From NCBI RefSeq assembly GCF_021560175.1, contig NZ_CP091110.1, forward strand, positions 982,001 to 1,046,000: a DNA stretch of 64,000 bases. Reading direction: 5' to 3'. The notes under the pieces are model-generated. The model was not told where the DNA came from. It did no database searches and saw only the letters and a list, made by a program, of their open reading frames with translations. The DNA is from Neobacillus drentensis. Its GTDB lineage: Bacteria > Bacillota > Bacilli > Bacillales > Cytobacillaceae. The translations under genes and the position numbers were made by a program. Shown in pieces: positions 205 to 1,156 of this stretch (its first letter is position 1; each line of letters begins with the position of its first letter).

Positions 205-519
205 TTTACACACCTACCTCATATTTTTTGAATTTTTAGTATATTTATATGTTGTTTAAATTATATGTCAGTTGTCACACTTTAGACAAATTTAACCCTA
301 ACCAGTAATTCAGGGAAAATTTGTAAATAAAAAGTAGTTATTTGTAGAATTATAGGAGAAATTGATTTAAAAAGGTGTTAGAAAATTAGTAAAAAATGAC
401 AAAAAACAACACAATCCAGTTGCGGTAATCGATATAATGAACATATCACAAAAAGATTAAGTAAAAAGACCTAGATAAAAAGTGTTGGTGAAAAGATTGC
501 ATTACTTAAGTAGGGAAAG
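205..519. other. AT-rich intergenic region before the sinI riboswitch
   Basis: No gene seen. A TATAAT at 433-438 could be the -10 of the riboswitch-sinI transcript, but no convincing -35 lies 16-18 bases before it. A single copy of the motif ATTTGTAGAATT lies at 340-351; the same motif forms an array near 12.8 kb. Confidence 0.4.
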
Positions 520-608
520 CAGAAAAGGGCAAACCTGTTGAAAAGCAGGGACGCAAAGCCGAGGATCTAAGGCAGGGAAAAAGCTGCTATGATGGCCGGG
601 TTACCTGG
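520..608 (+). ncRNA. cyclic-di-GMP-I (GEMM-I) riboswitch aptamer
   Basis: The conserved blocks of the class I c-di-GMP aptamer appear in order: GGGCAAACC (528-536), a GAAA-type loop, GGGACGCAAAGCC (548-560), a CTAA block (567-570), and GGCCGGGTTACC near 593-604. These are the same landmarks as in Vibrio Vc2. The aptamer ends about 30 bases before the sinI start. A short UACCU/AGGUA hairpin (about 602-620) followed by TTTT overlaps the closing stem. The expression platform may therefore be a weak terminator or may affect ribosome access; which one cannot be decided by eye. Confidence 0.9.
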
Positions 609-637
609 AATACAGAGGTATTTTGGGAGTGAGTAGA

Positions 638-781
638 ATGGTGATTACTGAAAAAGAAATGGATGTTGTTGATCAGGAATGGATGGAGCTTATTTTAGAG
701 GCAAGAAAAATCGGACTCTCCATCGAGGATGTGCGCAATTTTCTTACACAGGATGAGTTAAAATCATCAGCTACATATTAA
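638..781 (+). CDS. sinI: SinI-like antirepressor
   Basis: A 47-residue protein starting at ATG 638. It carries the SinI dimerisation motif DQEWMELILEARKIGLSIED followed by VRNFL, matching the DQEW-(V/M)EL-EAK pattern of B. subtilis SinI and the C-terminal domain of SinR. SinI binds SinR and stops it repressing biofilm matrix genes. The weak ribosome site GGGAG lies just upstream. The gene sits directly behind a c-di-GMP riboswitch and faces sinR, with which it shares a terminator. In B. subtilis sinI and sinR are instead tandem. The short C-terminus (LKSSATY) lacks the longer tail of B. subtilis SinI. Confidence 0.88.
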   Translation: MVITEKEMDVVDQEWMELILEARKIGLSIEDVRNFLTQDELKSSATY

Positions 782-784
782 AAA

Positions 785-829
785 AAAGCATTCTACAAAA
801 ATAAACGCTTTTGTAGAATGCTTTTTTTA
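785..829. terminator. bidirectional terminator between sinI and sinR
   Basis: Perfect arms AGCATTCTACAAAA (787-800) and TTTTGTAGAATGCT (809-822) with an 8-base loop, flanked by A-run and T-run. It can end both the sinI and the sinR transcripts. The right arm contains the TTTTGTAGAAT motif seen elsewhere in the window. Confidence 0.85.
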
Positions 830-1156
830 TTCATTATTATTTTGATTAATCCGCCATTTATTAAATTCGAGAAAATCCTTGAATTGCTCTTTAGAAACAC
901 CAGAATTCATGGCTTCTTTGACAAGGTTCATCCAATCCGTATCTAAATCGTCCTTATTGATTTGTTCGTGAATCAGATGCTCGACAGGAAGATTTAATAC
1001 GCCGGCAATTTTTTCAAGAAATTGAATGGAAGGGTTCTTTTGTAAATTTCTTTCTAAAGAACTTAAATAAGATTTTGCAACTCCCGCTTGCTCAGCAAGC
1101 TCGGATAGTGACATCTTCTTTTCTAAGCGGTATTTTTTAACACGGTCACCAATCAT
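827..1156 (-). CDS. sinR: SinR-like transcriptional regulator
   Basis: A 109-residue protein. Residues about 6-60 form an XRE-type helix-turn-helix (SLSELAEQAGVAKSYLSSLE). Residues about 72-103 repeat the SinI-type dimerisation motif (DTDWMNLVKEAMNSGVSKEQ). This is the layout of SinR, the master repressor of biofilm matrix operons, and length matches the family (111 in B. subtilis). ATG at 1156 follows GTAGGTGTGTGAG. It is transcribed toward sinI from its own promoter region (1157-1440), so it is not co-transcribed with its antirepressor. Confidence 0.92.
   Translation of the reverse strand: MIGDRVKKYRLEKKMSLSELAEQAGVAKSYLSSLERNLQKNPSIQFLEKIAGVLNLPVEHLIHEQINKDDLDTDWMNLVKEAMNSGVSKEQFKDFLEFNKWRINQNNNE

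Follow-up and report, generated by a model that had tools for sequence, protein, structure and literature searches.

In Bacillus subtilis, sinI and sinR lie in tandem, and SinI switches off the biofilm repressor SinR. To our knowledge, control of sinI by a c-di-GMP riboswitch is not known from that species. The available passages of PMC10134886 place B. subtilis sinI under the control of phosphorylated Spo0A (Spo0A~P). A putative c-di-GMP riboswitch before sinI has been recorded in Bacillus methanolicus MGA3, where an RNA-seq study gives "(c-di-GMP)-sinI" in a table (PMC4342826, seen as passages); the record is a table entry, and the mechanism, switching direction, conservation and paralogues described below come from the present analysis and are absent from those passages. 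Besides that study, no c-di-GMP riboswitch on sinI was found in the literature searched, the scope of which did not extend to subscription papers and preprints. The locus is a known riboswitch class on a target listed once before; the mechanism proposed here is new, and the breadth of the arrangement was not found in print.

Also the cbpA riboswitch of Bacillus thuringiensis, another member of the Bacillaceae, responds to c-di-GMP and is called an ON switch in the parts available of PMC7423583 and PMC7793685; there the target is a collagen-binding surface protein, whereas here it is an antirepressor. According to the portion seen of PMC9262584, the Cd1 and pilM riboswitches act on terminators and Vc2 is a translational OFF switch, while the present locus has a hairpin on the ribosome-binding site.

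The window, i.e. the whole 64-kb stretch of DNA analyzed, contains homologues of the B. subtilis antirepressor and repressor, and possibly a 0A-type promoter element as well. It differs from B. subtilis in the c-di-GMP riboswitch on sinI and in the convergent order of sinI and sinR. The features of the locus are the following.

397 to 412, plus strand: conserved element (Y)GACAAA...AACAC of the leader pattern, a candidate reversed Spo0A box, weakly matched in the window
433 to 438, plus strand: TATAAT, the putative -10 box of sinI by its conserved spacing, with a predicted transcript start near 445
518 to 608, plus strand: c-di-GMP-I (GEMM-I) riboswitch aptamer (Rfam RF01051, 78.5 bits, cut-off 35)
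604 to 627, plus strand: expression-platform hairpin CCUGGAAUAC/GUAUUUUGGG with conserved pairing (-9.3 kcal/mol, z -3.21)
625 to 631, plus strand: Shine-Dalgarno sequence GGGAGUG of sinI, from its sequence and its distance to the ATG at 638
638 to 781, plus strand: sinI, predicted SinR antirepressor of 47 aa (PF08671 53.3 bits; 1b0n_B E 1.4e-4)
781 to 828, no single strand: predicted bidirectional intrinsic terminator common to sinI and sinR (U-tract stem on the plus strand, symmetric A7/T7 flanks)
827 to 1156, minus strand: sinR, repressor of 109 aa with a helix-turn-helix (HTH) and a C-terminal SinI-type domain (PF01381 56.1 bits, PF08671 53.1 bits; 1b0n_A E 7.2e-37)

The aptamer matches RF01051 over its full length (model positions 1-87 of 87, E 9.6e-14), and its platform is a ribosome-binding-site hairpin, seemingly toggled at three base pairs. 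It was the sole Rfam family called in the window at gathering thresholds. The preliminary description had recognized a GEMM-I aptamer from three sequence blocks, all of which were found (GGGCAAACC at 527-535, GGGACGCAAAGCC at 548-560 and GGCCGGGTTACC at 594-605), and the covariance-model score, well above the gathering score of 35, confirmed the identity. Its distance of about 30 bases to a SinI-like gene was also accurate, the ATG at 638 following the aptamer end by 29 nt.

The Neobacillus-like host genome (6.26 Mb) has seven c-di-GMP-I aptamers, of which two precede SinI-like genes. Directly before the C of CAAA, at what we take to be the ligand-selecting position of GEMM-I from its presumed numbering, all seven aptamers, including that of the window, have G and not A. 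Furthermore, 16 GGDEF-domain matches were found in the host, and it therefore probably can make c-di-GMP. Both observations speak against the reading that the aptamer senses another cyclic dinucleotide, e.g. 3',3'-cGAMP, which can hardly be given any credence even though the passages available of PMC9262584 put cGAMP sensors in the same riboswitch family and those of PMC6274999 use a G20A variant of GEMM-I as a model of cGAMP binding.

The window SinI exceeds the Pfam SinI cut-off of 31.4 bits, and no HTH family scored above cut-off in its 47 aa, while SinR combines HTH_3 (PF01381) with the C-terminal SinI-type domain. Against the NCBIfam equivalog NF046031 (Bacillus SinI) the window SinI reached 32.7 bits, below the cut-off of 80, and it is classed from its sequence as a homologue outside the NCBI SinI equivalog. 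In sequence searches the two proteins matched both chains of the solved SinR-SinI complex 1b0n, a homology from which SinI is predicted to bind and disable SinR. The closest named match of SinR, 99% identical, is in Neobacillus cucumis V32-6. As originally described, sinI and sinR face each other and have a common terminator, the stem at 781-828 between them, which should be readable from both sides because of its A7 and T7 flanks. An intrinsic terminator between the aptamer and sinI was also sought; none was found in the 29-nt spacer, and the terminator that was found sits after sinI.

Elsewhere in the host, a second SinR-like gene lies beside another HTH-type frame (L124, 1273-1632 and 574-888), and a SinI-like gene without riboswitch is present far away from the locus (L122, 1456-1599). 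A plasmid origin was considered and rejected, as the distant plasmid search gave two partial matches, a SinR of Bacillus badius and an unrelated match of 42 nt. The former, on the 396-kb B. badius plasmid pPM400 (L207), is a SinR homologue with a DNA identity of 66% along some 250 nt; its annotation is helix-turn-helix protein. Next to it are a phospho-sugar mutase and a hypothetical gene, and a sugar-phosphate nucleotidyltransferase is also close by.

At least 123 of the 150 genomes searched, host included, had a SinI-domain match. One SinR region was taken from each of 112 relatives, while ten matching relatives were left out since no SinR-like row was among the matches listed; the genomes left out or matchless include G006, G039 and G048 of the same genus. 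The seven host aptamers were made into a covariance model for searching these regions. Of the 57 same-genus SinR loci, 55 had an aptamer by this model, each ahead of a SinI-like frame, and the two misses (L030 and L061) have a contig edge on the sinI side. In other genera and families the aptamer was present in 37 of 55 SinR loci, one of which has two. All 94 aptamers, with that of the window counted, were followed by a SinI-like frame on the same strand, the weakest scoring 14.3 bits (L095) and the next 25.9 bits. The relatives thus bear out the aptamer-sinI arrangement of the preliminary description, and the pair is not peculiar to this genome, as is evident from the same-genus loci and the B. 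methanolicus listing.

Among 80 named GTDB SinR loci (Neobacillus, Cytobacillus, Mesobacillus, Robertmurraya, Niallia and others), 71 had the aptamer within the fetched stretch, a count of the aptamers only, and not independent of the fetched set, because many of the loci belong to the same species. The nine aptamer-less named loci include one cut at a contig end (L163) and two without a sinI frame (L149 and L171), and in the remaining six a SinI-like frame is present, short in L181. When 20 aptamer-less loci were searched for hidden aptamers with filters off, the best score was 13.3 bits. In a search of 14 loci (the nine named ones and five retried) the best was an unconvincing 17.1 bits (E 0.045), just upstream of sinI in L181. 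The control search with RF01051 gave matches in none of 14 well-known genomes, B. subtilis among them.

Read by eye, the hairpin is present before sinI in L110 in the absence of an aptamer, and in L181 and L185 together with a portion of the aptamer 3' end, while L168 and L196 have only such a portion; these apparent remnants suggest riboswitch loss in those lineages. Two same-genus loci with low-scoring aptamers, L009 and L051, were considered as decayed, but this was rejected since both core halves and the hairpin are present. Long inserts interrupt the variable stem of these aptamers in its apical region, with the core halves and the platform intact. The same-genus genome G006 has three aptamers, none of them on a SinI-like gene.

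Gene order was compared in 111 loci, with the window included and L030 and L061 dropped. An aptamer occurred together with a sinI convergent to sinR in 79 loci and with a sinI on the same strand as sinR in 14, while the aptamer-less loci comprised seven same-strand, five convergent and six without sinI. As aptamer loci thus exist in both gene orders (79 of 93 convergent, 14 of 93 tandem), the aptamer goes with sinI and not with the convergent layout. In the SinR tree, aptamer loci fall on both sides of the branch holding most convergent loci. The fewest changes on that tree were ten for aptamer presence and four for gene order; the tree is poorly resolved (109 columns, quick method) and was used solely for the two-sided placement.

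The pairing extends beyond sinR. A second aptamer-SinI-like pair of the host lies at genome position 5172346, without sinR beside it, and its aptamer scores best of the seven. The 23 genomes with complete lists contained 141 aptamers in about 118 Mb and 85 SinI-domain matches (E up to 0.001), of which 53 were SinI-like, i.e. open frames of less than 100 aa, a few of these below the Pfam cut-off. An upstream aptamer was detected for 27 of the 53, distributed as 17 of 23 genes with a SinR-like match at 1500 nt or less, and 10 of 30 genes farther away; the 26 genes without aptamer include 20 away from SinR. Only 0.014 aptamer-sinI pairs would be expected among the 53 genes by chance in comparison to the 27 observed, which makes chance an unlikely source of the pairing. 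The distance from the aptamer to the SinI domain was 45-64 nt in 26 of the 27 pairs, the exception, 264 nt, being the locus of L009 with its insert. The aptamer-sinI spacing is nearly fixed in convergent and tandem layouts alike, and also where sinI is far from sinR.

These results bear on a reading in which sinI and sinR, being transcribed towards each other, are coupled by interference and the riboswitch is secondary. The predominance of convergent layouts among the aptamer loci agrees with it, but the bidirectional terminator separates the genes, 14 of the 93 aptamer loci are tandem, and within 1500 nt of ten riboswitch-sinI pairs there is no SinR-like gene. Transcriptional interference is not needed as an explanation, and as the main one it is very improbable.

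The expression platform consists of a hairpin of ten base pairs (604-613 with 618-627) with the general form CCUGGAAUAC-loop-GUAUUUURGG. Its 5' arm opens with the last CCU of the aptamer (604-606), and its 3' arm extends into the ribosome-binding site of sinI, of which it covers the first half. At least ten uninterrupted pairs starting from the terminal CC of the aptamer were present in 79 of the 94 aptamers. Of the rest, as judged by eye, seven have one interruption (L035, L038, L056, L065, L069, L079 and L085) and eight lack the hairpin (L081, L095, both aptamers of L097, L099, L101, L106 and L111); the latter eight may switch by other means. Most loci have a strikingly similar spacer from the aptamer to the start codon.

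The hairpin alignment included 88 distinct sequences, namely 86 of the 94 (L009, L051 and duplicates were dropped) together with the host L001 and L002. In these, 96.1% of the cells were paired, as compared to 26.0-55.9% when the partners were slid, and the covariation score was 0.136 against 0.031-0.076 for the slid partners. Seven cells were changed on both sides, a number reached by none of 500 shuffles; as the slid partners gave from two to eight, this count does not single out the hairpin register. Three pairs had a change on both sides, a number that 62 of the 500 shuffles attained. In sequence, the arms are for the most part conserved. By these comparative measures the pairing is well conserved, with moderate support from covariation.

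With the energy model, bases 625-627 were almost never unpaired in the free leader (0.00-0.03), but were unpaired with 0.87-0.95 when 604-606 were withheld, at an ensemble cost of 5.6 kcal/mol. Bases 628-632 of the ribosome-binding region were partly paired in both modelled states. Because the 5' arm of the hairpin uses the aptamer's own terminal CC(U), the pairings of aptamer and hairpin compete. The passages of PMC9262584 available for Cd1 place c-di-GMP binding at C87 and give a KD of 1.9 uM for the 87-nt and of 0.25 uM for the 88-nt RNA. A translational ON switch is predicted since the terminal bases of the aptamer matter for ligand binding in the class and form the foot of the hairpin.

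The riboswitch in the sinI leader is thus probably a translational ON switch of the antirepressor SinI. At low c-di-GMP, the foot of the 10-bp hairpin would form between the CCU of the aptamer 3' end and the first half of the sinI ribosome-binding site, and SinI would not be made. With c-di-GMP bound, the aptamer would retain its CCU, for which only the bottom three pairs of the hairpin would have to open; the ribosome-binding site would then be exposed and SinI produced. In tandem loci, such a switch would alter SinI and yet not terminate the transcript shared with sinR.

The direction of switching is not derivable from the class, because Vc2, its best-studied GEMM-I member, is called a translational OFF switch in what is available of PMC9262584. 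The bound RNA might instead keep or strengthen the hairpin, e.g. with the upper stem stacked on the aptamer, and c-di-GMP would then lower SinI and favour repression by SinR. Not only the Vc2 precedent agrees with such an OFF switch but also the upper 7-bp stem beside the ribosome-binding site, which persists in the modelled bound state. It is nevertheless considered improbable, as the hairpin takes the terminal CC(U) of the aptamer into its 5' arm and the two pairings compete.

The leaders upstream of the aptamer share a promoter-like pattern. Of the 56 same-genus leaders, 48 contain the element [CT]GACAAA[AT]...AACA (shuffles gave an expectation of 0.0), as do five of 37 leaders of other genera. 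The shorter T[CT]GACAAA was present in 15 of the 56 (0.8 expected) and in eight of the 37 (0.6 expected), the window copy being a weak match. TATAAT begins exactly 36 nt after the start of [CT]GACAAA in 42 of the 49 same-genus leaders holding both, and in 46 of the 49 it ends 61-91 nt before the aptamer. The window copies lie at 397-403 ([CT]GACAAA-type element) and 433-438 (TATAAT), the latter not listed by the generic promoter scan. The conserved TATAAT at this position suggests that the sinI transcript starts upstream of the aptamer; leader transcription would begin about 75 nt upstream of it. An inverted repeat, TTAAGTAA/TTACTTAA (window 457-464 and 502-509), lies between the predicted transcript start and the aptamer, and some relatives have GGACTA/TAGTCC around the -10 box.

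The SinR half-site motif is GTTCTYT, and it was not enriched in the sinI leader (0 of 56). The available part of PMC10134886 gives TGTCGAA as the Spo0A box consensus, and the conserved upstream element may on this basis be a 0A-type box. As the window copy is weak and the full pattern is present in only five of the 37 leaders of other genera, an input from Spo0A is put forward as a suggestion. The promoter may still need Spo0A~P, in which case the two inputs would form an AND gate. The preliminary description had c-di-GMP set the amount of antirepressor directly, and gave no direction of switching, for which ON is the likely one; the proposal stands in that the aptamer belongs to sinI by its fixed spacing, whereas a replacement of the Spo0A input by c-di-GMP is not supported, since an element resembling a 0A box lies upstream, weak as its match is in the window.

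It could also be that the promoter mainly sets sinI output, through Spo0A~P or some other activator as in B. subtilis, and that c-di-GMP only trims it. The upstream element in 48 of 56 same-genus leaders and, in 42 of 49, its constant 36-nt distance to TATAAT would fit such a minor role of the riboswitch, as would the several relatives that have sinI without an aptamer. On the other hand, aptamer, platform and spacing have been kept across genera and on SinI-like genes far from sinR, and we regard the minor role as unlikely, although it is the alternative with the greatest weight. It is very likely, judging from the conserved arrangement, that c-di-GMP sets SinI synthesis.

In the proposed ON switch, SinI made in response to c-di-GMP would tie up SinR, and the biofilm genes would be derepressed. 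Because the arrangement recurs in many relatives, c-di-GMP probably turns on biofilm formation at sinI. The host has two TasA-type matches behind a candidate sipW-like signal peptidase gene (sequence reading). At about 2485-2515 of L205 (host 4.21 Mb), GTTCGTTAAAAAGAAC, which resembles the SinR half-site, lies just upstream of this candidate gene, followed by the two TasA-type genes. In B. thuringiensis, overexpression of a c-di-GMP-making protein was accompanied by raised expression of sinI and spo0A and by more biofilm (deposited array data), as reported in the passages available of PMC7793685; these data concern sinI expression and not an aptamer-sinI riboswitch.

The same platform was looked for in 40 further aptamers. 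Ten of these precede SinI-like genes that lie outside the fetched SinR loci; the other 30 were taken from the 114 aptamers of the 23 genomes that are not associated with sinI. The script rule found the hairpin in seven of the ten. Seven of the 30 were also flagged, but L224 has no ribosome-binding site there, which leaves six. In the host, L001 and L002 show the platform, which is absent from L004, L005 and L007; the hairpin of L006 is a different one. In L002 (host genome 2726006-2726089) as well as in L229, L230, L231, L233, L237 and L238, the platform riboswitch precedes one family of small proteins, those of the latter six loci being 39-96% identical to that of L002.

Direct scans of four of these proteins with the Sda family PF08970 gave 12.9 and 13.7 bits for two, and whole-genome scans 17.8 bits at best, all below the cut-off of 22.6. 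Four riboswitch genes of the family were among the weak PF08970 matches at E up to 1, where also seven of 14 control genomes match. A profile-profile comparison gave a probability of 90.4 over 43 columns. The family weakly resembles Sda, an inhibitor of sporulation kinases.

Tentatively, and with somewhat less than even confidence, the c-di-GMP-I riboswitches sharing this platform across the relatives can be seen as a regulon of tiny antagonist proteins. One is SinI, including paralogues far from sinR through which SinR or repressors like it might be titrated; the other is the Sda-like protein, a possible brake on sporulation kinases. In such a regulon c-di-GMP would, by RNA alone, bias the Spo0A/SinR network for biofilm and against sporulation, with B. 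subtilis as a lineage lacking this control.

A riboswitch on the antirepressor would connect c-di-GMP directly to the SinR biofilm switch, a link not clear from the model species, and a translational switch would let SinI be set apart from SinR even in tandem loci. The riboswitch is present at sinI in most of the relatives examined and in both gene orders, and conclusions drawn from B. subtilis on c-di-GMP and biofilm may not carry over to these relatives.
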